Origin: a virus
Direction: 5' to 3' (one strand)
DNA length: 37,598 nucleotides
IMG/VR virus record: IMGVR_UViG_3300034112_001864
Location: 1-37,598 of that record
The position numbers and the translations under genes were made by a program. Shown here one piece after another: positions 8,363 through 25,056 of the stretch; position 1 is the stretch's first letter, and each line of letters opens with the position of its first letter. The notes under the pieces are model-generated. The model saw nothing but the letters and a program-made list of their open reading frames with translations. It searched no databases and had not been told where the DNA came from.

Positions 8363-8424
8363 CCCTTGCTAAGGGAGCATACCTTAACCGGGTATCCAGG
8401 GTTCGAATCCCTGCGTCTCCGCCA
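8363..8424 (+). other. attP core: 3' half of tRNA-Ser(GCT)
   Basis: The sequence matches the tRNA-Ser(GCU) pattern from the anticodon stem to the CCA end: anticodon loop TTGCTAA with GCT at 8368-8370, a long class-II variable arm, T-arm GGGTTCGAATCCC and the 3' end CGTCTCCGCCA. The 5' acceptor strand (GGAGACG) and D-arm are absent upstream, so this is not a complete tRNA gene. A 3' tRNA fragment beside a tyrosine integrase gene is the usual form of attP; after integration it restores the host tRNA. Late genes lie on one side and integrase on the other, so this is attP rather than attL or attR. Confidence 0.85.
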
Positions 8425-8575
8425 GAAAGCTGAATAAAGACAAGGCGTTGAGCGGCATCGCAGGCGCGCAAAAAGGCGCGGCCAAAATTGATACTTTGGC
8501 CTATCACACGGATTCCACACCGGACGCGCTCCGGTGAACCGCTTGTGCAACGACGTGCGGAAGCGATCTTACGGC

Positions 8576-9811
8576 TCATGCTACGTCCGATTTTTCGGGC
8601 GCGGGGCCGGGGAGGGAGAGCGGGCGCGCGTTGAGGCCGGGGCGCATCTCCCAGCCGTAGGACAGAACCTCATCGGCCAAGTCGGCCGAGCCAACGTGCG
8701 TGTAGCGCATCGCCATTGCGGGCTTTGCCCAGCCGCCTTGATCCATGAGCCATGCGAGATCGCGCGTGACTGCGTAAGTCCACGTCGCCCAAGTGTGGCG
8801 GAAGACGTGAGGGTGAATCCACGCCACGCGCTCGCGCTCTGCAATCGCTTCGTAGATCGCCCACACTTGCTTGCGTGCTTCGTTGCGCGCGTCGTGATCA
8901 AACTTCGCGCTGCCGGCGCGATGCACTAGCTCAGCGATGCGCTCACTCTCGTCGTTGTTTGCGCGCTCGCGCACGGCGCGCACGGTGATGCGATCGAGCG
9001 CCTTCTGCACGGCGCCAACTGTCCAGCGCTCACCGCGACCGTTGAGGTAAACGGGGCCTAGTCCGTCCGCTGGCCTTTGCGGCAAGAGTCCACGCACGCG
9101 CGTTTGCACATCAATGCCGCGCGCGCGTCCTGCTTTCGTGTCGCCTTCCCAAAGCGTGAAGCGATGATTGGCCGGAGAGACTTGCGGCCAATCAAGTTTG
9201 ATAAGCTCGCCTGCGCGCGCGCCTGTGCCGACATAGCCGGTGATGATTGCTTTCTCCGGCCCTGCGTTATCGAGCCACCACTGAATCTCTTTCGGTGTGC
9301 GCCAGTCAACGCGGCCGAGCGGAGTAGGGGGCCTGCGAATGCGGCCCTTCGTAAAGCCCCACGATGTCTGATCGGCGGCGTATTGAAGAACGGCGGACAC
9401 CGGCGTGTAGAGCTGGCGATTTCTAGTCGCGTCTTTGGCGTTGGGATAAATTGCAGCGGCGAGGTCATCGATCACGCTCTGATCAATCTCGGTGAGCAGC
9501 ATTTGTCCGAAGATGCGCTTCGCACCATCGACCTTGATTTCCGCCGCGTTGATCTTCGCTAGAAAGGTTTTCTCTCCGCCAGCCTTCACATAGCCAATCA
9601 TCGCCTCAGCGAAGCTGCGAGGCCGCGGCTTGTTTAGGACTACCTCTTCGTAGATGTCCCGCTTGCGCCGTTCGAGGATGCCTTCCGCGTCTCGCTCATT
9701 ACGAGTTCCTGCGCTCTCATCCAAGTTTCTTCCAAGGTAGGTGCCGCGGATTTGCCAGATCCCCGAACGGGGGTGTTTGTAGAGGCGGAGGCGGAGCTTT
9801 TCTTGGGACAT
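8576..9811 (-). CDS. int: Tyrosine recombinase / phage integrase, 411 aa
   Basis: Catalyses site-specific recombination between attP (8363-8424, about 150 nt from the gene's 3' end) and a host tRNA-Ser gene. The N-terminal region (about 1-60) looks like an arm-binding domain, residues about 65-155 are the SAM-like core-binding domain, and the catalytic domain follows. All active-site residues are visible: R199 in GARAGEL, K226, H335 and R338 in HPHVFRHT, W361 in GGW and the nucleophile Y370 in MRYTHV. Length is normal for the family. The 5' end overlaps the upstream excisionase-like gene by 172 nt in another frame, so both are read from the leftward early transcript. Confidence 0.95.
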   Translation of the reverse strand: MSQEKLRLRLYKHPRSGIWQIRGTYLGRNLDESAGTRNERDAEGILERRKRDIYEEVVLNKPRPRSFAEAMIGYVKAGGEKTFLAKINAAEIKVDGAKRIFGQMLLTEIDQSVIDDLAAAIYPNAKDATRNRQLYTPVSAVLQYAADQTSWGFTKGRIRRPPTPLGRVDWRTPKEIQWWLDNAGPEKAIITGYVGTGARAGELIKLDWPQVSPANHRFTLWEGDTKAGRARGIDVQTRVRGLLPQRPADGLGPVYLNGRGERWTVGAVQKALDRITVRAVRERANNDESERIAELVHRAGSAKFDHDARNEARKQVWAIYEAIAERERVAWIHPHVFRHTWATWTYAVTRDLAWLMDQGGWAKPAMAMRYTHVGSADLADEVLSYGWEMRPGLNARPLSLPGPAPEKSDVA

Positions 9812-15426: not shown

Positions 15427-15458
15427 GGGAGTGGGCGGCTCCATCTGTTGATGAAGCG

Positions 15459-15487
15459 AGTGTGCAATACGCCAACCATGCCGTCAA
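15459..15487 (-). promoter_or_regulatory. Possible leftward early promoter
   Basis: On the minus strand TTGACG (15487-15482) is followed after exactly 17 nt by CACACT (15464-15459), a poor -10. It lies between the repressor terminator and the first gene of the leftward operon. The -35 is good, the -10 weak, so an activator may be needed. Confidence 0.4.
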
Positions 15488-15518
15488 TAAAAAAGTGGGC
15501 ACAGCGCCCACTTATTTT
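15486..15518 (-). terminator. Terminator downstream of the repressor gene
   Basis: AAGTGGGC (15493-15500), loop ACAGC, GCCCACTT (15506-15513). On the minus strand the stem is followed by a run of T residues, making a strong terminator after the repressor gene. The plus-strand tail ATTTTGTT is weaker, so termination may be partly bidirectional. Confidence 0.8.
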
Positions 15519-15555
15519 GTTCCGGTTAGTAACCTGTTGTTAGGATGTTGGTGAA

Positions 15556-15915
15556 TCAGGCAACGTCGCCGTTATCCTCTTCATCGGTCGCCATCGCTCT
15601 AAGAAGGCGTAAATCCGTGGCGCGTCCGCGCTTTACGATCTTGCCCACAATGCGCTTGATCTCGTCGGCTTGCTCCGGGGTGTAGGCCACAAGATCGGCC
15701 TCGTCGCAGTTCAGCGCGATGGCAAAGGCTCGCAATTGGTCGCTGTTATAGCGCCTTTTGCCCCGTTCCAGCTTCGACACGTCGGACTTGGACAGCTTCA
15801 TAGCGGCGTCGCCCCATGATTCGGTGATGTCATTGACGCGATCGGCAAGCGCCTCTTGCGAGAGTTCGCGGTGGCGTCGCCACTCTTCAAGATACCAGCG
15901 GGTTCTATTGGGCAT
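15556..15915 (-). CDS. cI-like XRE-family repressor, 119 aa
   Basis: I start it at ATG 15915 (MPNRTRWYLEEW), since upstream codons lie in the operator region and look unlike protein. Residues about 8-70 form an XRE-type helix-turn-helix (LSQEALADRVN, then KLSKSDVSKLERGKRRYNSDQLRAFAIALN). The last 45 residues are a short helical dimerisation-type tail. There is no S24/LexA-type peptidase domain, so RecA-induced self-cleavage is unlikely and induction must use another route. It stands opposite a Cro/YdaS-like gene across a region with inverted repeats, and is followed by its own terminator. Confidence 0.75.
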   Translation of the reverse strand: MPNRTRWYLEEWRRHRELSQEALADRVNDITESWGDAAMKLSKSDVSKLERGKRRYNSDQLRAFAIALNCDEADLVAYTPEQADEIKRIVGKIVKRGRATDLRLLRAMATDEEDNGDVA

Positions 15916-15924
15916 AGCCCATTG

Positions 15925-15967
15925 TGCCAACCTCCCGCATGGCTGTCGTTGGCAGAGGAGGCGACAG
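15925..15967. promoter_or_regulatory. Operator-like inverted repeats in the immunity region
   Basis: TGCCAAC (15925-15931) is mirrored by GTTGGCA (15948-15954), a perfect 7-bp inverted repeat with centres 23 bp apart. An overlapping pair, CTGTCG (15943-15948) and CGACAG (15962-15967), gives a second. A CATAAT -10-like hexamer (15999-16004) precedes the Cro-like gene, and GCATAATGC there is itself palindromic. Together they fit a repressor-operator switch. Confidence 0.5.
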
Positions 15968-16019
15968 GGCCGGCGTGGGGCTTGACCGGAGGGGTGGGCA
16001 TAATGCACACTGCCTTACC

Positions 16020-16322
16020 ATGAGTCTCTCCCTTCTCAAATACTGTGAGTCTTTTGGCCTGACCGTCGCGGACGTAGCGCGCGAGGCCGATCTGGACCCG
16101 AAGTGGCTTTACAAGGTCGCCAAGGGAGAGCGGGGATTTTCCCCGGAGACCGCGGCGGCGATCGAGGCGGCGACCAAAGGGGTCGTTACGCCGTCCGATC
16201 TTAACAAAGCACGCATGGATTGGCTCGCGGCAAATCCAGACGCGGCGCGGAAGAAAAAGCCGGAGGCTGGCAAGAAGGCCCCCAAGCGCCCTTTCGTAAG
16301 GGCTGAGGAGCCGGTGGCATGA
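16020..16322 (+). CDS. Cro/YdaS-like HTH regulator, 100 aa
   Basis: ATG at 16020 is the first good start after the operator region. The HTH core (LLKYCESFGLTVADVAREADLDPKWLYKVAKGERGFSPETAAAIEAAT, residues about 5-53) has the shape of YdaS/Cro-type antirepressors. The C-terminal third is a Lys/Arg/Pro-rich tail. Divergent arrangement with the cI-like gene suggests it competes for the same operators to open the lytic programme. Confidence 0.7.
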   Translation: MSLSLLKYCESFGLTVADVAREADLDPKWLYKVAKGERGFSPETAAAIEAATKGVVTPSDLNKARMDWLAANPDAARKKKPEAGKKAPKRPFVRAEEPVA

Positions 16323-16327
16323 CTGCC

Positions 16328-16642
16328 TCAGCTCTTGCTCTTGCTCTTGCTCTTGCTCTTGCTCTTGCTCTTGCTCTTGCTCTTAGCGGGGCGGGGCAGG
16401 GTGCCAGCCGTGATCGGCTTGCCTTCTTGGAGCAAATGCACTTCGGCGCTTGGCCGCGCCAACAGCACGCCAAGCCGGGTGTAGAGATCGAGCGCGAACG
16501 CGGGCGTCATGTGACCGTTGGCGATGTATTCGCCGCTACGGCCCTTCATGAGTATGCAGGGGCCATCCCAGTCCAGATGAACAAGCTCGCTGAACAGCGC
16601 AGCCGAGCCATCAAGGCGCGCATTCAAAGCCGCGATCGACAT
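16328..16642 (-). CDS. Small protein with C-terminal (KS)9 tail, 104 aa
   Basis: A globular part of about 85 residues (for example LVHLDWDGPCILMKGRSG, then MTPAFALDLYTRLGVLLARP) is followed by nine exact Lys-Ser dipeptides, encoded by nine perfect copies of a hexamer. The stop comes directly after the repeat. The plus-strand frame here would be a poly-Leu/Ala run and looks artificial. Such a Lys/Ser tail is reminiscent of histone-like DNA-binding tails and is rich in possible phosphorylation sites, but no function is known. It converges on the Cro-like gene with only 5 nt between them. Confidence 0.6.
   Translation of the reverse strand: MSIAALNARLDGSAALFSELVHLDWDGPCILMKGRSGEYIANGHMTPAFALDLYTRLGVLLARPSAEVHLLQEGKPITAGTLPRPAKSKSKSKSKSKSKSKSKS
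16331..16384. repeat. Hexanucleotide tandem repeat, 9 copies of GCTCTT
   Basis: Nine perfect copies of a 6-bp unit (AAGAGC on the coding minus strand). Slippage would change the KS tail length by whole dipeptides without a frameshift. Confidence 0.95.
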
Positions 16643-16654
16643 TCCAAGCCTCCG

Positions 16655-16674
16655 TTGTTCCCATCAGGGAACAA
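16655..16674. promoter_or_regulatory. Operator-like inverted repeat between divergent genes
   Basis: TTGTTCCC (16655-16662) and GGGAACAA (16667-16674) form a perfect 8-bp inverted repeat around ATCA, between the minus-strand KS gene and the plus-strand HTH gene. No clean promoter hexamers were found beside it. Confidence 0.45.
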
Positions 16675-16716
16675 TCCAAGCGTGTCCAATTTTTCTCGTC
16701 AAGGGGGAGCGTAGTG

Positions 16717-17502: not shown

Positions 17503-17837
17503 TGCCTCTCACTCCAACACGCGATTGGCTCCCCATCATGCGCGATGCGAAGGCTCGCGGGATTCACCGCGCTCAAGTCGCAAGAGAGCAGGGCGTTTCA
17601 GCGCCGACTGTCTCCAAGTGGTGCAGCTTCTATCGCATCGATCTTCCGAAAGGGACAACACGGCGCGCGATTGCGGACTGGCCTGTTGTTCTCGCTGACG
17701 CAGCCAAGCGCGGGCTTACCCTGAAAGAGGTGGCTTACGATAACAATGTCTCTCGCCCTTGCGTGTGCAGGCACACAAAGCGCTTGGGCATTTCGCTCAA
17801 AGGCCAACACCATACCCCTCGCGCGAGGGCCGCATGA
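17502..17837 (+). CDS. Tandem HTH protein, 111 aa
   Basis: Two similar halves of about 45-50 residues each begin with DW-P (DWLPIMRDAKARG and DWPVVLADAAKRG), continue with an HTH (AQVAREQGVSAPTVSKW and KEVAYDNNVSRPCVCRH) and end in I-x-L-K-G. This is an internal duplication giving two DNA-binding units in one chain. Overlaps its neighbours by 1 and 4 nt. Likely an early transcription factor; target unknown. Confidence 0.65.
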   Translation: MPLTPTRDWLPIMRDAKARGIHRAQVAREQGVSAPTVSKWCSFYRIDLPKGTTRRAIADWPVVLADAAKRGLTLKEVAYDNNVSRPCVCRHTKRLGISLKGQHHTPRARAA

Positions 17838-18034
17838 CGGACTTCCCAAACTTCGGGGAAATCCCCGGTCACGTCACGCTCTACGACGTGCAGCGCGAAG
17901 CTAAGCAACGCGCAAAGGACGAAGCGAAAGCTCTCATCCTCAACGAGCTTCTTTACGTCACCACAGACGAAAACGGCCGCCATCTTTCTGAGAGAAAATG
18001 GCGAAAGCATTACGCCTTAATCGAGAGGCTTTGA
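17834..18034 (+). CDS. Small hypothetical protein, 66 aa
   Basis: ATGA overlap with the HTH gene. Charged helical body (YDVQREAKQRAKDEAKALIL) followed by a short beta-like end (TTDENGRHLSERKWRKHYAL). No family recognised. Confidence 0.6.
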   Translation: MTDFPNFGEIPGHVTLYDVQREAKQRAKDEAKALILNELLYVTTDENGRHLSERKWRKHYALIERL

Positions 18035-18949: not shown

Positions 18950-19800
18950 GCTGCGCCGTTCTCCTCCACTTCGCTGACGACACCCGTATCACCAGCACTC
19001 AGTTCCGCGTGCTCGGGCTCATCTTGAAGGGCTACTCAAAGCGCGCCGACATGGCCGCGAAGGTCAACAAGACCGTCGTGACTGTCGCCCGGGCGATCGA
19101 CGCTCTGGTCAAGCTGGGCATTGTTGAGCGGGAAACCGTCAAGGGAAAGCCGAGCAAGCTCCGTATCTCGACCCGTATCATGGACGCCGTGCGCGTGCTC
19201 GAAGCGGACGCCGCGACCCGTATCACTGATGCGACTAGTAACACTGGTGATACGACTACCCGTATCATTAATGATACGACCCAAATAACCCGTATCACCA
19301 ATGATCCGACCACCCGTATCGCTGGTGATCCGACTGCGCCAAATGATACGGGTCAGTCTGTGGATAACCCGCCTCGCGGGGATGTAAGCACGGGCGCGCG
19401 CGCGCAAACACAACCTTCTAATACTACAATACCTAGATCTGATCTGATCGTATCGAAGGCGATGATCGATGCGCTGATCGCCCGAGCTGGCGACGGCTGC
19501 AACCCGACCCACGGCGACGTTCACAGCGGCGCAGAGCTGACACGGCTCTTGCGCGGCGGTTGCACCTGGGAGGACATCGAGTTCGCCACAGACAGGTTAG
19601 CGGCTTCGTTCCGTCGGCGCGGCCAGCGCTTCGGCACATGGACGCTGCTCGAAGAGCACGCGGTCAAAATCCGCGACCGCCGCTTGGCTGGATTGCCGGC
19701 GCCCACAACGCCGTCACCGACCGCATCTTGGGACTCGCGACCGCGCCGCAACGGCCCATACGGCGCCAACGGCATCGCGCCGATGGTGGGCGTAGGCTGA
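18946..19800 (+). CDS. Replication initiator-like (O-type) protein, 284 aa
   Basis: Residues about 15-75 form a MarR/replication-type winged helix (QFRVLGLILKGYSKRADMAAKVNKTVVT has the expected pattern). The middle (76-131) is made of Thr/Arg/Ile/Asp repeats encoded by an iteron array, and residues 150-240 form a second domain (ALIARAGDGCNPTHGDVHSG, then LLRGGCTWEDIEFATDRL). As with lambda O, the origin seems to lie inside the initiator gene. Followed at once by the primase-helicase genes, which it would recruit. The initiator role is inferred from iterons, layout and fold. Confidence 0.65.
   Translation: MSCAVLLHFADDTRITSTQFRVLGLILKGYSKRADMAAKVNKTVVTVARAIDALVKLGIVERETVKGKPSKLRISTRIMDAVRVLEADAATRITDATSNTGDTTTRIINDTTQITRITNDPTTRIAGDPTAPNDTGQSVDNPPRGDVSTGARAQTQPSNTTIPRSDLIVSKAMIDALIARAGDGCNPTHGDVHSGAELTRLLRGGCTWEDIEFATDRLAASFRRRGQRFGTWTLLEEHAVKIRDRRLAGLPAPTTPSPTASWDSRPRRNGPYGANGIAPMVGVG
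18982..19353. repeat. Iteron cluster / probable replication origin inside the initiator gene
   Basis: ACCCGTATCA occurs at 18982, 19171, 19216, 19258 and 19288, as a 9/10 copy at 19312, and inverted at 19344-19353. Several copies are followed by a mirror half, giving the perfect palindrome GTATCATTAATGATAC at 19260-19275. Spacings of 45, 42, 30 and 24 nt keep the frame, so each copy codes for T-R-I. An AT-richer stretch (about 19408-19450) follows and could be the unwinding element. Confidence 0.75.
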
Positions 19801-19806
19801 TGCGCG

Positions 19807-20154
19807 ATGAGCAAACTCTCCGACTTCGGCATCAAGCCGCGCGGCCCGGGCAAGAGCTGGAAACAGACCTGTCCGCGCTGCAGCCATCTTCGCAAGAAGA
19901 AAACCGATCACTGCCTCAGCGTGACGACTGGACCGGCGCAATCTTCGTCGGGCTGGATCGATCCTGGGGTTTCGATTTTCCTTTGCCACAACTGCGGCTG
20001 GAAGGATCGCGCTGATGAACGCGACCCTGAAGGCGGCGACACCGCCAAGCGGCCTCAGCGCTACCGCGCGAGCGTTCCTAGAAGCCCGTGGCTTGGACAC
20101 GGAACTGTGCGAACGTCTGGGGCTAACAAGCGGCCCAGATCGCGGTGGTCGTGA
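19807..20154 (+). CDS. Primase zinc-ribbon subunit (N-terminal part of a split T7 gp4-like primase), 115 aa
   Basis: CPRC (22-25), a His/Cys at about 35-36 and CHNC (60-63) form the zinc ribbon that T7 gp4-like primases use to read template initiation sites. In T7 this domain is the N-terminus of the same chain; here it is a separate frame. The last 46 residues lie in a 140-nt overlap with the TOPRIM-helicase gene and look like translated out-of-frame sequence (Arg/Ser/Pro-rich). It may therefore work as a short separate subunit, or be joined to the next frame by a +1 shift. Confidence 0.7.
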   Translation: MSKLSDFGIKPRGPGKSWKQTCPRCSHLRKKKTDHCLSVTTGPAQSSSGWIDPGVSIFLCHNCGWKDRADERDPEGGDTAKRPQRYRASVPRSPWLGHGTVRTSGANKRPRSRWS

Positions 20155-21604
20155 GTGGCTAGCGATCCCCTATGAGCGCGCCGGCGCCCGGGTAAACCGC
20201 AAGTTCCGCGCAATCGATGCCAAGGACTTCCGCCAAGACAAAGGCGGCGAACAAGTCTTCTGGCGTCACGACTGCATCGTTGATGAAGGCTTGGCCGATC
20301 AACCGCTCATCATCACCGAAGGCGAGTTCGACGCGATCGCCGCGATCCAAGCTGGCTACTGGCGCACTCTCTCGATCCCGGGCGGCGGCAACGCGCAAGC
20401 GCAAGCGGAGGCGCGCACGTCAGGCAAGTACGCCTGCATCGCCGCGGCGCAACCCGGGCTGGATAAGATCAAGCACGTCATCATCGCTACCGATGGCGAC
20501 GGGGTAGGGGCGGCGACGCTCACGGACCTAACGAGCCTGCTAGGGCCGGCGCGCTGCCAGTTCGTCAGCTATCCGCCCGGGTGCAAGGATCTGAACGATG
20601 TCCTGCTGAAGCACGGCGCCGAAGGCGTGCGCGCGTGCATTGATGGCGCAAAGTGGGTGCGCGTCGCCGGCGTCCATAAGCTTTTCGATCTGCCGCCATT
20701 GCCGCCGCTCGAAACCTGGCGCTCGCACATCCACAAGCCGATCGATGATCTCTTGCCGATTTGCCCGGGGCATCTCTCGGTTTGGACGGGCATCCCCGGG
20801 CACGGCAAGTCATCGCTGCTGAACGCGATCGTGTGGTCAATCTCCGACCGCGACGGGACGCGCATCGCTCACGGCACATTCGAGGCCTCGCCTCAGCGCG
20901 AGTACTTGGAGGATTGCACCGGCTTTCATCTAGGCAAGCCGGCAAGCGACGCCACCGATCAAGAGCGCGAGATGGCCCGCCAGTGGGTGCAAGAGCGCAT
21001 CACCTTCATCGTCTCGGACGGCTATGTCGGCCCGGGCAATGAAGAGTTCTTCGATGCTGACCTTGACTGGTTCTTCGAGGGCGCGCGCACGGCCGTTGTT
21101 CGGGACGGATGCCGCATCGTGATCTTGGACCCGTGGTCTCAGATCGAGCACGCCCGCACCAATGCCGAGCCAGAGACGACCTACATCCAGCGCAGCATCC
21201 GCCGCGCCAAGTCGTTCGCGCGCACGTTCGATGTCCACGTTGCGATTGTCGCGCACCCCAGCAAGCAGCGCCGGATGGAAGATGGCTCTTACGCCATGCC
21301 GGAAGGCTACGAGATCAGCGGCTCGGCGCACTGGTTCAACGGCGTTGATCTTGGCGTCACGGTCCACCGCGCGCCGCCGCTCATCCTTGATGATGACAGC
21401 GGAAACTGGATGCCTGATCCAAAGTCCACGCGCGTCCTGATCCGGGCTTGGAAGAAAAAGAACCACCGCATCATGGGCAAGCCCGGCGACGCTTACGCAT
21501 CGTTCGACTCCAACACCGGCCGCTACTCCTCAGCCGAGCACTGGGAAGAGCGCACCCAACCAAAACGCTACGCAAAACCACCGGAGAATCGCCGTGACGA
21601 TTGA
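20015..21604 (+). CDS. T7 gp4-like primase-helicase, TOPRIM + RecA-type helicase, 529 aa
   Basis: AAGGA lies 8 nt before ATG 20015. A TOPRIM primase core is visible: EGEFD at 102-106, DGD at 160-162 and KDLND at 191-195. It is followed by a hexameric helicase domain with Walker A GIPGHGKSS (259-267) and Walker B near CRIVILDPW. In the family, the protein unwinds DNA 5' to 3' and lays down primers. The zinc ribbon needed for template recognition is not in this chain but in the overlapping upstream frame. Its 3' end overlaps the nuclease gene (GTG start at 21594). Confidence 0.9.
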   Translation: MNATLKAATPPSGLSATARAFLEARGLDTELCERLGLTSGPDRGGREWLAIPYERAGARVNRKFRAIDAKDFRQDKGGEQVFWRHDCIVDEGLADQPLIITEGEFDAIAAIQAGYWRTLSIPGGGNAQAQAEARTSGKYACIAAAQPGLDKIKHVIIATDGDGVGAATLTDLTSLLGPARCQFVSYPPGCKDLNDVLLKHGAEGVRACIDGAKWVRVAGVHKLFDLPPLPPLETWRSHIHKPIDDLLPICPGHLSVWTGIPGHGKSSLLNAIVWSISDRDGTRIAHGTFEASPQREYLEDCTGFHLGKPASDATDQEREMARQWVQERITFIVSDGYVGPGNEEFFDADLDWFFEGARTAVVRDGCRIVILDPWSQIEHARTNAEPETTYIQRSIRRAKSFARTFDVHVAIVAHPSKQRRMEDGSYAMPEGYEISGSAHWFNGVDLGVTVHRAPPLILDDDSGNWMPDPKSTRVLIRAWKKKNHRIMGKPGDAYASFDSNTGRYSSAEHWEERTQPKRYAKPPENRRDD

Positions 21605-22181
21605 GGCGCGCATTTCATCGCTCTTGCGCGAGGGCATAGAAGAGCACCAGCAGACGGTCGCCTTCTGGGCTGAGAACACCTATGCGGACCTGGCTGCAAA
21701 CTGCCAGAGCCCCATAGAGCGCCTGTTGCTGGCGCCGCTCATGTTCATTTGGCCGCAGTGCCTGTCTCCGCGGTACGAAGGCCCGGGCGATCGTGAGCGC
21801 GAAGCGCGGCTCTATGCCCAGTATCGCGTCGGTGATCGCAAACTTGACTTCGCCTACATCGTGACGCCGCTGCAAGAGCCGTGGGAAATCAGGCTCGGCA
21901 TCGAGTGCGACGGTCACGAGTATCATTCGAGCGTCGAGCAGAAGGCCAACGACAACGAGCGCACCATCGAGGTCGTCTCGGAGCAGGGCTTCAACATCAT
22001 CCGCTTCTCAGGCTCGCAGATCAGCCGCGACCCGAAGGCCTGTGCCGCCAAGGTGGCCGAAGCCGTTGACGGCATCTTCCAGAGCAACGTGTTCGCCTAT
22101 GTGAAGCGCAAGAACACGGACGCCTATCGCGGCATGATTGGCCCGCTTCTCTCCAACATCGCGGAAGGGGATGTGCCATGA
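21594..22181 (+). CDS. DUF559/Vsr-like PD-(D/E)XK nuclease, 195 aa
   Basis: SPIERLLLAPL near 39-49, RVGDRKLDFAYIV near 78-90, GIECDGHEYHSS near 103-114 with the acidic E-x-D pair, and QKANDNERTIEVVSEQGFNIIRFSGSQI near 116-143 reproduce the fold of DUF559 and Vsr-type endonucleases. GTG start overlaps the helicase stop. It may process recombination or replication intermediates, or take part in host DNA breakdown. The exact substrate cannot be read from sequence. Confidence 0.75.
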   Translation: MTIEARISSLLREGIEEHQQTVAFWAENTYADLAANCQSPIERLLLAPLMFIWPQCLSPRYEGPGDREREARLYAQYRVGDRKLDFAYIVTPLQEPWEIRLGIECDGHEYHSSVEQKANDNERTIEVVSEQGFNIIRFSGSQISRDPKACAAKVAEAVDGIFQSNVFAYVKRKNTDAYRGMIGPLLSNIAEGDVP

Positions 22182-22459
22182 GCTTCATCGCTGACCCGAT
22201 CGCGCGCTGCTCCAACGAGGCGCACAACGCCAAGTCATCCCGGGAGCGCTCTGCCCGGGCGTGGCTGATCGTGAATGCGATCGAGGTTTATGGCCCGTAT
22301 GTTTCTCTCAGAGAGCTTGGCCGCAAGACCAACATCAACCTCAGCACGTTGAACGCTGATCTCAATCGGCTCGAAGCAGATGGCCTAGTCGTTCGAGAGA
22401 CCATGCCGCTCAAGTATCACGCTAAATCTCCCCGGCATGTTTGGAGCTTGAAACCGTGA
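22178..22459 (+). CDS. Winged-helix DNA-binding protein, 93 aa
   Basis: ATGA overlap with the nuclease gene. Residues about 25-90 form a winged helix (WLIVNAIEVYGPYVSLRELG, then NINLSTLNADLNRLEADGLV). The stop overlaps the next start (TGATG). Likely a small regulator of the middle operon; no named family. Confidence 0.7.
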   Translation: MSFIADPIARCSNEAHNAKSSRERSARAWLIVNAIEVYGPYVSLRELGRKTNINLSTLNADLNRLEADGLVVRETMPLKYHAKSPRHVWSLKP

Positions 22460-22716
22460 TGTGGCGCCGCGCCGTAATGGCGATCTCACTTCCGTTAGCG
22501 ACGCTCTGCGCTTTTTACCTTTTCGGGGTCGCCGCAGAACTCCAAGCGATTGGCGCGCACGACTACGCGAGCATCCAAGTTGCTCTCGGCCTTTGCATGG
22601 CGGCATGGGCCGCGTTGGCGATCTGTTGGCTGATTTGGAGCCCAAGCCATCAAGAATGGTTTGGCGACGACGAAGAAGAAGAAGGCTCGTCAATGACCAG
22701 CGAGCAGGAGCTTTGA
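22459..22716 (+). CDS. Two-TM membrane protein with acidic tail, 85 aa
   Basis: Hydrophobic segments at about 6-24 (VMAISLPLATLCAFYLFGV) and 40-60 (VALGLCMAAWAALAICWLIW), then an acidic tail (DDEEEE). ATG at 22459 is used because it overlaps the upstream stop. No family recognised; a membrane role in superinfection exclusion is possible but unsupported. Confidence 0.6.
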   Translation: MWRRAVMAISLPLATLCAFYLFGVAAELQAIGAHDYASIQVALGLCMAAWAALAICWLIWSPSHQEWFGDDEEEEGSSMTSEQEL

Positions 22717-22717
22717 A

Positions 22718-23224
22718 ATGAAAATCACGAAGAGCCCCTGGACAGAGGAATGCGTTCAACTCTTGCGCCGGTTGCGGCTTGTTGAAGGGCTGGCTTGCAG
22801 CGAGATCGCTCGCCATCTGACCGCGCTTACGGGCCGTAGGTTCTCCCGTAACTCCGTGATCTCGAAATGCGATCGGCTTGGCTTTGAAGCGCCGTCGCAC
22901 CTTCGGGGCAATCGCGAGCGGCAAGCCTCAGCGTTGTCGAACCGCCGCGAGCGCCCGCCGAAGATCGCGCGCGAAGCGAAGCCGCCTAAGCCATTCTCGC
23001 AGCCAAGAGCGCCGATCGCTTGGAAGCGCTCAGAGGGCCCAGCGCGCGGCGACTGGAACATGCCCTGGTCAAAGCATGTGGACTTCAAGCACTGCGCCAT
23101 GTTCATCGGGGAAGAGAGCGGGAGCCAAGGCTTGGTTTGCGGCAAGCCCGCGACGCATGGCGTCTATTGCGAGCACTGCGCGGCGTTTTCGTATCAGCCT
23201 CTCAGACTTGCGGACGCAGCATGA
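22718..23224 (+). CDS. gcrA: GcrA-family cell-cycle regulator, 168 aa
   Basis: The N-terminal 57 residues match the GcrA DNA-binding pattern: SPWTEECVQLLRRL, EGLACSEIARHL and the recognition helix RNSVISKCDRLGF. The C-terminal region ends in the family-type Cys/His block (C126, CGKP at 141-144, YCEHC at 150-154, then YQPL). In Caulobacter, GcrA binds sigma70-RNA polymerase and activates promoters at CcrM-methylated GANTC sites. A phage copy could redirect or mimic that control during infection. It overlaps the Mom-like gene by 4 nt (ATGA), so the two are made together. The linker (about 60-115) is basic and low in complexity. Confidence 0.85.
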   Translation: MKITKSPWTEECVQLLRRLRLVEGLACSEIARHLTALTGRRFSRNSVISKCDRLGFEAPSHLRGNRERQASALSNRRERPPKIAREAKPPKPFSQPRAPIAWKRSEGPARGDWNMPWSKHVDFKHCAMFIGEESGSQGLVCGKPATHGVYCEHCAAFSYQPLRLADAA

Positions 23225-23811
23225 GCGAACGTGACTCCCCCCTTCGGTATGAGTTTCCGCTGCTGGACTTCCCAGCAAGTCGGATCGTGGACAGGGCAAG
23301 AGAATTAACGGTGAAAGTGTGCTACAAGGACCACGCAGTCGGACTGGTCGAAGCGTGGCATTCAAGGCTTCCAAAAACCCAGAGCGGGCCGTGGATGTTT
23401 GCATTCTCTGCCTCGTTTGAGGGGCGCACGTATGCAGTCGCGTTGTGGAACAATCCAAGCGCGCGTGGATTGCCGCAGACATGGCTGGAACTACGCAGAC
23501 TAGCAGCGGCTCCAGACGCACCGCGAAATACATGCTCGTTCATGCTGGGGCGAATGAGCCGATATTTTAAATTGCACCATCCCGAGATCGAGCGGCTGAT
23601 TTCATACCAAGACTCCGCCGTTCATACAGGCACGATTTACAAAGCATCTAATTGGACGCAAGGCGCCGTTTCTAAAGCGCGGGCTCGCGACCGCTCAAAG
23701 CCGCGCGTTGGCACGCGAAGGGACTATCGGTCCAATCTCAACGGGGCCGCTCCCGACGCGGCGGAAAAAATCCGGTGGGAATTTTCGCTAGCGCTGAAGG
23801 GGGCAGCATGA
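23221..23811 (+). CDS. Mom-like GNAT-fold DNA adenine modification protein, 196 aa
   Basis: Residues 45-145 follow the Mom family layout: AWHSRLP (45-51), FEGRTYAVALWNNPS (66-80), ELRRLAAAP (90-98), APRNTCSFMLGRM (100-112), and the conserved block SYQD (128-131) plus HTGTIYKASNW (135-145). In phage Mu, Mom converts adenines to N6-carbamoylmethyl-adenine and protects phage DNA from restriction. The C-terminal 45 residues are basic and Ser/Arg-rich, suited to DNA contact. Start at 23221 overlaps the GcrA stop. The exact modification made here is unknown, and no Mu com-like RNA regulator is seen. Confidence 0.7.
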   Translation: MSERDSPLRYEFPLLDFPASRIVDRARELTVKVCYKDHAVGLVEAWHSRLPKTQSGPWMFAFSASFEGRTYAVALWNNPSARGLPQTWLELRRLAAAPDAPRNTCSFMLGRMSRYFKLHHPEIERLISYQDSAVHTGTIYKASNWTQGAVSKARARDRSKPRVGTRRDYRSNLNGAAPDAAEKIRWEFSLALKGAA

Positions 23812-24071
23812 CCGGCGAACTCCATTCTCTCCCCCGCCCAAATCGCGAACCTCCAGAGCACATCACAGTGCCGATAGATGAGTTTGCTGACCGGCTAGGG
23901 CAGCTTATCGCTGATGGCGAAGACAAAGCCTCGCGGCTGACCATGACGGCGTTGTCCGTCCCGGCAGCAACACAAGCCGACTTCAACGAAACCAACGAAG
24001 CCACAAACCAAGTCCGCGCTCGTCTCTACGCAGCGCAGTTGAAGGTCTTGATGAAGGGGATAGGGGGGTGA
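23808..24071 (+). CDS. Small hypothetical protein, 87 aa
   Basis: ATGA overlap with the Mom-like gene. Hydrophilic N-terminus, then a helical body (IDEFADRLGQLIADGEDKAS). No zinc motif or membrane segment. Last gene of the GcrA-Mom operon before a new promoter. Confidence 0.55.
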   Translation: MTGELHSLPRPNREPPEHITVPIDEFADRLGQLIADGEDKASRLTMTALSVPAATQADFNETNEATNQVRARLYAAQLKVLMKGIGG

Positions 24072-24076
24072 GCCGC

Positions 24077-24105
24077 TTGACAGCGAGTATAGGATATCCT
24101 ATATC
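24077..24105 (+). promoter_or_regulatory. Sigma70-type promoter with palindromic operator in spacer
   Basis: TTGACA (24077-24082), 17-nt spacer, TATATC (24100-24105). The perfect palindrome TATAGGATATCCTATA (24088-24103) fills the spacer and overlaps the -10. Outer GCG/CGC bases at 24083-24085 and 24106-24108 extend the symmetry. A repressor bound here would block polymerase directly. Confidence 0.8.
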
Positions 24106-24125
24106 CGCTGCATCAGGAGGCAAAC

Positions 24126-24410
24126 ATGGCGACGTTCAAGTATTTCGCAGACATCAACGGCACGACCAGCGAGCTGACGAATGTCTGGCACGACGGTCAC
24201 GTTTCAACGGCGGCGCATCACTTCTCTGGCCTGACGCCAGAGGGCGCTCGTGTTGCCGCCACCCGCAAGATTGAGATGAAGGCCCGCCCCTCGCGTCACG
24301 AGTGCGACGCGCGCTGCATCAACGCAACTGGCCGCGTTATGAAGTGTGAGTGCTCTTGCGGCGGCAAGAACCACGGACGCGGGTTTTCTTGCGAGATGGT
24401 GGCAGCATGA
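24126..24410 (+). CDS. Small Cys-rich phage protein, 94 aa
   Basis: AGGAGG lies 6 nt before ATG 24126. Residues 58-90 carry a Cys/His pattern (HECDARC, then CECSCGGKNHG and SC), which recurs in small phage proteins and suggests a zinc site. The first 50 residues look beta-rich. First gene behind the palindromic promoter, so likely tightly regulated. Confidence 0.7.
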   Translation: MATFKYFADINGTTSELTNVWHDGHVSTAAHHFSGLTPEGARVAATRKIEMKARPSRHECDARCINATGRVMKCECSCGGKNHGRGFSCEMVAA

Positions 24411-24598
24411 CCAGCGAATCCCAGCGCAGAGCCAACAAGAAACAGGACGCCACCCGGAAACGGGTGGCGCTTTGGCTTGAGCCTGATGACGCCAAAGAGT
24501 TGGCGAAGATCATGCGCAAGCACGGTCTCCCGTCGCGCATTGCCGCGCTTCGGCATCTAATAGCCGAGTCAAAAGCCCATGATCTGCCCCCGCGCTGA
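24407..24598 (+). CDS. Ribbon-helix-helix-like protein, 63 aa
   Basis: ATGA overlap with the preceding gene. RKRVALWLEPDDAKELAKIM followed by a second helix (PSRIAALRHLIAESK) fits a short RHH DNA-binding fold. It may be the repressor of the palindromic promoter upstream, since it is the second gene behind that site; this is inferred from position. Confidence 0.6.
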   Translation: MTSESQRRANKKQDATRKRVALWLEPDDAKELAKIMRKHGLPSRIAALRHLIAESKAHDLPPR

Positions 24599-24779
24599 GT
24601 GCCCCATAGAGCGTATCCGCGTTGCCATCAACGCCACGCTCAAGGACGCCAAGCGAGCGCAGAGCGAAACCGTGATGTCCTGCACCTTCTGCAAGAAAAC
24701 AGTAGGCTGGAGACACGTCGGAGACCAAGACATCCCCCTTGCTCATGAAGAGGTTTGGGGAGCGCAAAAGAGGGCTTGA
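24579..24779 (+). CDS. Small Cys-containing protein, 66 aa
   Basis: Overlaps the RHH gene by 20 nt in another frame. Two Cys near the start (ICPRAECP) and a CTFC pair at about 35-38 could bind metal. Its end runs into the next promoter, whose -35 begins 4 nt before the end of the stop codon. No family recognised. Confidence 0.5.
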   Translation: MICPRAECPIERIRVAINATLKDAKRAQSETVMSCTFCKKTVGWRHVGDQDIPLAHEEVWGAQKRA

Positions 24780-24804
24780 CCCCTACGCAGCTTCTGCGTA
24801 TATA
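24776..24804 (+). promoter_or_regulatory. Sigma70-type promoter with inverted repeat in spacer
   Basis: TTGACC (24776-24781), 17-nt spacer, TATATA (24799-24804). ACGCAG-CTT-CTGCGT (24785-24799) is a perfect inverted repeat inside the spacer, another operator-like site but unlike the one at 24088 in sequence. Confidence 0.75.
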
Positions 24805-24855
24805 GAGGGTGTCGCCAACGGGGAATGATCCACGGGGCGGCGGGAACAAAACCAA

Positions 24856-25056
24856 ATGAGCACCTACACCGTTTACGCCAACGTCGAGCAAAAAGACTTC
24901 TCTGAAGTCTCAAGACATCGCTCGCTTAAAGCCGCTGGCAAATCGTATCAGGCCGCGCATACGGGCAATCTTCGCCGAGTGCTTGACCAAGATGGTAATG
25001 ACGTAACCAGCGCGGCGTGTGATGCGGTCAATGCGGTCGCTGAAAATGACCGCTGA
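24856..25056 (+). CDS. Small hypothetical protein, 66 aa
   Basis: First gene after the 24776 promoter. The sequence is alpha/beta in look (TYTVYANVEQKDFSEVSRH, then RRVLDQDGNDVTSAACDAVN) and lacks obvious motifs. Overlaps the next gene by 11 nt. Confidence 0.6.
   Translation: MSTYTVYANVEQKDFSEVSRHRSLKAAGKSYQAAHTGNLRRVLDQDGNDVTSAACDAVNAVAENDR

Follow-up and report, generated by a model that had tools for sequence, protein, structure and literature searches.

Does the GcrA-family regulator encoded at this locus work together with the Mom-like DNA-modification enzyme whose gene overlaps its own, or do the two genes only happen to stand side by side? The window analyzed here is the whole of the IMG/VR record IMGVR_UViG_3300034112_001864 (37,598 bases). 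It codes for an integrase, RecT, a primase/helicase, a large terminase, a portal, a scaffold and a P22-type coat protein, and the integrase, the tailed-phage structural genes and a Cro/C1-type region point to a temperate tailed phage. Next to the integrase gene (8576-9811) lies a sequence resembling a tRNA 3' end (GGGTTCGAATCCCTGCGTCTCCGCCA, about 8385-8425) that is probably the attachment site; ARAGORN found no complete tRNA there. A run of about nine CTTGCT hexamers (about 16334-16385), near the start of ORF 16319-16714, encodes (Leu-Ala)n and could vary in length.

The two genes appear to lie in the middle of a replication/accessory operon, the features of which are as follows.

20015-21604, plus strand, primase/helicase (PHROG 239, E 1.7e-63)
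21594-22181, plus strand, REase-fold endonuclease homologue (MTES_1575/DUF559) with a GTG start (Pfam MTES_1575, E 1.1e-12, over the cut-off)
22178-22459, plus strand, winged-helix DNA-binding protein (MarR_2/HTH_24; Pfam MarR_2, E 3.6e-7)
22459-22716, plus strand, small protein with apparent transmembrane segments in its translation
22718-23224, plus strand, gcrA homologue, 168 aa (ATG 22718, TGA 23222-23224)
23221-23811, plus strand, mom homologue, 196 aa, GNAT fold (ATG 23221, TGA 23809-23811)
23808-24071, plus strand, small protein of unknown function, with an ATGA overlap with the mom stop

No family match was obtained for ORF 22441-22716, which overlaps the fourth of these, and no Pfam match for a longer ORF starting at 23775.

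The first-pass annotation had assigned ORF 22718-23224 to the GcrA family, and the profile and structure searches agree. Its product matched the Pfam GcrA profile (PF07750) with an E-value of 2.5e-13 (51.1 bits against a cut-off of 26.9), residues 8-162 aligning with profile positions 3-148 of 155; residues 7-163 also aligned with 7ye1, the full-length GcrA chain of Caulobacter (E 2.3e-7). The AlphaFold model (mean pLDDT 80.7) comprises a confident N-terminal helix-turn-helix (predicted helices 10-22, 27-38 and 44-54), a low-confidence, unstructured linker and a C-terminal domain, the same order as in GcrA of Caulobacter crescentus (7ye1, 5yiu, 5yix), where a helix-turn-helix and a disordered linker precede the sigma-interacting domain. 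The C-terminal domain is of the sigma-interacting type and carries Cys126, Cys141, Cys151 and Cys154; the fourth putative metal ligand is thereby a Cys where Caulobacter has His. Its top Foldseek match was the Caulobacter sigma-interacting domain 5yix_B (prob 0.97, TMt 0.67, rmsd 1.9 over 41 columns), with an E-value (0.31) that is weak because the domain is small. By profile match and predicted fold, the ORF thus encodes a full-length but diverged GcrA homologue. With only 45.8 bits against the NCBIfam cell-cycle equivalog NF050816, far under the 280-bit cut-off, it is a homologue and not the host cell-cycle GcrA itself. A candidate second GcrA at 17703-17930 was discarded, being a weak match that runs across a TGA and falls under the cut-off.

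GcrA recruits sigma-70 RNA polymerase, in Caulobacter at methylated GANTC promoters (PMC7403470; PMC3667746). The recognition helix reads VISKCDRLGF in the window protein and VIGKVHRLGL in Caulobacter, and a turn is inserted before it; because of these changes the phage protein may be altogether unable to recognize methylated GANTC. The conserved columns of our GcrA alignment (A6) carry no evidential weight here, its sequences having been chosen by the motif itself. Descriptions of phage-borne GcrA go back to 2012 and to phiCbK-like Caulobacter phages (PMC3556154), where, as in the window, the protein is phage-encoded and full-length; it was proposed to alter the host cell-cycle state. Those phages are giants of >200 kb, and the available part of that source mentions no Mom neighbor. 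A tblastn search with P0001 matched no record of the phage collection.

The Mom-like identity given earlier to ORF 23221-23811 was likewise upheld. The protein matched Pfam Mom (PF25680; E 2.3e-13, 50.7 bits against a cut-off of 27.1, the best stretch covering only profile positions 65-128 of 202) and PHROG 1384, "Mom-like DNA modification protein" (E 2.5e-19); the NCBIfam XF1762 model (NF045478) gave 33.8 bits, under its 50-bit cut-off. With its AlphaFold model (pLDDT 93.9, 58 sequences aligned), the top two Foldseek matches in the PDB were 8bv8_B and 8bv8_A, chains of phage Mu Mom described as the inactive mutant S124A, and 8bv8_B (E 1.7e-9, TM 0.65) stood ahead of every other GNAT. Mu Mom 8bv8 was also the sole match in PDB profile searches. 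Structure prediction, which the first-pass annotation had proposed for both proteins, therefore did not favor an unrelated acetyltransferase family for the second. In the profile alignment H47, S106, D131 and Y140 fall opposite H48, S114 (S124 of 8bv8), D139 and Y149 of Mu Mom, and among 58 Mom relatives H47 is kept in 57, D131 in 54 and Y140 in all, the position of S106 being occupied by Ser in 43 and by Thr in 15. The residue opposite S106 reads Ala in 8bv8, and we take it to be the mutated S124 (chain index about 114-115); the His, Asp and Tyr of Mu Mom opposite H47, D131 and Y140 are presumably functionally important. We conclude from family profiles and predicted fold that the ORF encodes a Mom-family protein.

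Mom has been known in phages since Mu. The Mu enzyme is a methylcarbamoylase that shares with the window protein the GNAT fold, the aligned H/S/D/Y residues and its encoding by a phage. The window protein differs in its sequence (about 16% identity) and length (196 aa against about 231-241), no com homologue was seen in the window, and its gene sits in a replication/accessory operon instead of the late position of Mu. In both phages mom immediately follows, and overlaps, the gene upstream of it, which in Mu is com.

The 4-nt overlap of the two genes reported in the first-pass annotation is real: the TGA stop of gcrA and the ATG start of mom share the ATGA at 23221-23224 on the plus strand. It is, however, an ordinary junction, since its kind recurs both within the operon and among Mom relatives. 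Other 4-nt overlaps occur at 22178/22181 and 23808/23811, position 22459 is common to a TGA and an ATG, and the genes at 22716/22718 nearly abut. The relatives L003, L017 and Roseobacter phage CRP-902 show the same 4-nt overlap of mom with a preceding gene, in each case an unrelated one. CRP-902 (OQ401624.1; Pfam Mom 142 bits) has an alphaproteobacterial host, as the window virus probably does, yet its upstream gene encodes a VRR nuclease and GcrA is found nowhere in its genome. Translational coupling was rejected as evidence for a module on these grounds. No GANTC occurs between 21586 and 23233, so there is no obvious GcrA-controlled promoter ahead of the pair, and a search of 19700-25000 yielded no sigma-70-like promoter. 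Autoregulation of gcrA through an upstream GANTC promoter was discarded for both reasons.

A functional pair might be expected to recur, and the first-pass annotation had suggested searching other alphaproteobacterial phages for the same neighbors. GcrA was found in 3 of 50 Mom-bearing viral records (2 of 49 with the same virus left out), and Mom over the cut-off in 1 of 100 GcrA-bearing ones. Searches from the GcrA side and from the Mom side found the direct 4-nt pair only in further contigs of the window virus, and a conserved direct pair was rejected on this ground. One of these contigs, IMGVR_UViG_3300037517_002978, is 99.99% identical over the 13.4 kb compared, with 12.6 kb of the same contig identical; another (L013) breaks off within the same gcrA after 20 codons, and the gene upstream is identical. 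Relatives sought with the terminase, as a gauge of GcrA frequency in related phages, turned out to be the same virus only. Each gene is well represented by itself: GcrA alone occurs in 34 named records and at least 120 IMG/VR stretches, and Mom alone is common, the window Mom subfamily counting 368 confirmed stretches. Both named phages checked, CRP-902 and Pseudanabaena phage Pan3, have a Mom-family protein without GcrA. Mom was over the cut-off in 3 of 385 alphaproteobacterial genomes, and the regions fetched around it in two of these three held no GcrA-like motif. Our literature search found no link between GcrA and phage Mom; one paper names GcrA, Mom and phage together, but it deals with an unrelated subject.

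Three other viruses do carry both genes, on one strand and 0.3-1.7 kb apart. The gcrA gene lies 1.5 kb upstream of mom in L017 and 1.7 kb upstream in L005, whereas in L149 (IMG/VR record 3300043313_000538) the order is opposite to that of the window, mom being followed by a small gene and gcrA, all joined by 4-nt overlaps. L149 resembles the window in having both families on one strand, 4-nt overlaps and a strong depletion of GANTC, but its two proteins are only distantly related to ours, and the GcrA proteins of the three viruses differ greatly from each other. This proximity is weakly suggestive of a loose association, and it could also reflect a tendency of both genes to sit in early operons. 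The GcrA-family protein of L005 (2510-3232), encoded upstream of its Mom gene, has two GcrA-type helix-turn-helix stretches in tandem. Some of the 65 dereplicated loci hold DNA methyltransferase genes, of the N6/N4 and C5 types, close to their Mom-family gene (for instance L092:2359-4179, L056:8197-9429 and, in Pan3, L245:4043-4678); none was detectable in the window.

The composition of the genome bears on the host. GANTC occurs 45 times in the window against about 169 expected from dinucleotides, a ratio of 0.27, while seven control words of matching pattern lie at 0.70-1.17 of expectation; the three further viruses that carry both genes have ratios of 0.37, 0.06 and 0.03. This depletion fits a host with CcrM and GcrA and, being specific, it points together with the gcrA gene itself to an alphaproteobacterium as the probable host. 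Both family identifications of the earlier proposal are supported, and a host with GANTC-type methylation is plausible; the gcrA-mom module that the proposal built on them is not supported. GATC is over-represented (292 against 189 expected). Four of the 45 GANTC sites fall in the divergent repressor/Cro-like region 15445-16322 (HTH genes 15559-15915 on the minus strand and 16020-16322 on the plus strand), one of them overlapping the start codon at 16020; this is at expectation (1.19), the numbers being small and the region having been chosen after the fact.

Six-base palindromes are avoided in the window (0.59 of expectation, against 0.70 in GcrA-bearing, Mom-free loci). CAGCTG (18.5 expected), GTCGAC (11.5 expected), CACGTG and GAATTC are absent altogether, and enzymes cutting the first two are blocked by Mu Mom. 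As palindromes are still avoided, the genome gives no indication of having been relieved of restriction pressure by the window Mom. A relaxation of palindrome avoidance through Mom protection was accordingly rejected, the trend being opposite and confounded by host.

We favor, as fairly probable, an explanation in which two known kinds of phage accessory gene are chance neighbors in a replication/accessory operon and act independently. That these are two ordinary accessory genes and not a joint device is suggested by the relatives, in which both usually occur apart. Judged by its family, fold and conserved residues, the Mom homologue is a GNAT-fold enzyme whose most likely activity is the attachment of an acyl-derived group to adenine N6 in phage DNA, which would protect that DNA from restriction. 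For the GcrA homologue the most likely role is that of a sigma-70 cofactor, which would bind host RNA polymerase via sigma domain 2 and steer it to promoters, possibly with GANTC sites methylated by the host CcrM if it reads methylation as Caulobacter GcrA does. The two genes probably share a transcript simply as a consequence of their place in the operon, Mom acting on DNA and GcrA on transcription. Some observations sit less easily with this explanation: both genes are close and co-oriented in L017, L005 and L149, no restriction protection by Mom is visible in the genome (palindromes 0.59), and the GcrA recognition helix, with its inserted turn, departs from that of Caulobacter.

The joint epigenetic module put forward in the first-pass annotation, in which Mom alters adenine marks that the phage GcrA reads or ignores so that restriction escape is coupled to transcription control, we consider unlikely. 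The adjacency and overlap of the genes and the three other viruses holding both within 1.7 kb on one strand are in its favor. So is the target of Mu Mom, (C/G)A(C/G)N(C/T), which contains GA(C/G)TC. Of the 45 GANTC sites in the window, 26 have this form, and at these a Mu-like Mom could contend with CcrM for the very adenine read by GcrA. Mu mom is itself controlled by methylation-dependent promoter binding, as cited in PMC4461284. Against it, the direct pair is confined to the window virus, co-occurrence is low from both sides (2 of 49 and 1 of 100), CRP-902 and Pan3 have Mom without GcrA, mom overlaps unrelated genes elsewhere, and the stretch ahead of the pair lacks GANTC (21586-23233) and a sigma-70-like promoter (19700-25000).

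A pairing of Mom with the REase-fold protein at 21594-22181, akin to restriction-modification, seems similarly unlikely. Mom would mark the phage DNA, the REase-fold protein would cut unmarked host or rival DNA, and GcrA would be a bystander. The MTES_1575/DUF559 homologue belongs to the same operon, three genes counting gcrA lying between it and mom, and Mom domains fused to REase-fold domains have been reported in jumbo phages (PMC7824862). The protein at L011:4101-5450 resembles those fusions: its Mom domain is preceded by a long N-terminal region that matches MTES_1575 weakly (21 bits, below the cut-off). In the window, however, the proteins are separate, and among the 50 Mom-bearing viral records MTES_1575 is over the cut-off only in the window virus, so its pairing with Mom is no more conserved than that of GcrA.

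That the Mom homologue is a GNAT acting on a protein or a small molecule, with no DNA modification here, strikes us as about equally unlikely. The low identity to Mu Mom (15-16% in the structural alignment), the many ordinary GNATs that match the fold nearly as well and the XF1762 score under the cut-off would allow it. Mu Mom is nonetheless both the best fold match and the sole PDB sequence-profile match, the Pfam Mom and PHROG Mom-like profiles were both matched, S/T, H, D and Y are conserved at the Mom active-site positions, and DNA methyltransferase genes lie near several Mom-family loci. A target adenine shared by Mom and GcrA is very unlikely; in this scenario, given Mu-like specificity, about half of the GANTC marks would be overwritten by a bulkier group that the diverged phage GcrA tolerates or prefers, moving transcription from host to phage.

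Both kinds of gene are already known in phages, and their pairing as a system is not established by these data. If they are merely neighbors, as we favor, two known families, GcrA and Mom, each gain a diverged phage member encoded by an alphaproteobacterial virus. The specific idea worth keeping is the chemical overlap of the Mu Mom target with the adenine of CcrM and GcrA. If GcrA and Mom did cooperate, one phage would both rewrite an epigenetic mark and read it, and since half of all GANTC sites fit the Mu Mom target, the idea of a shared mark is testable.
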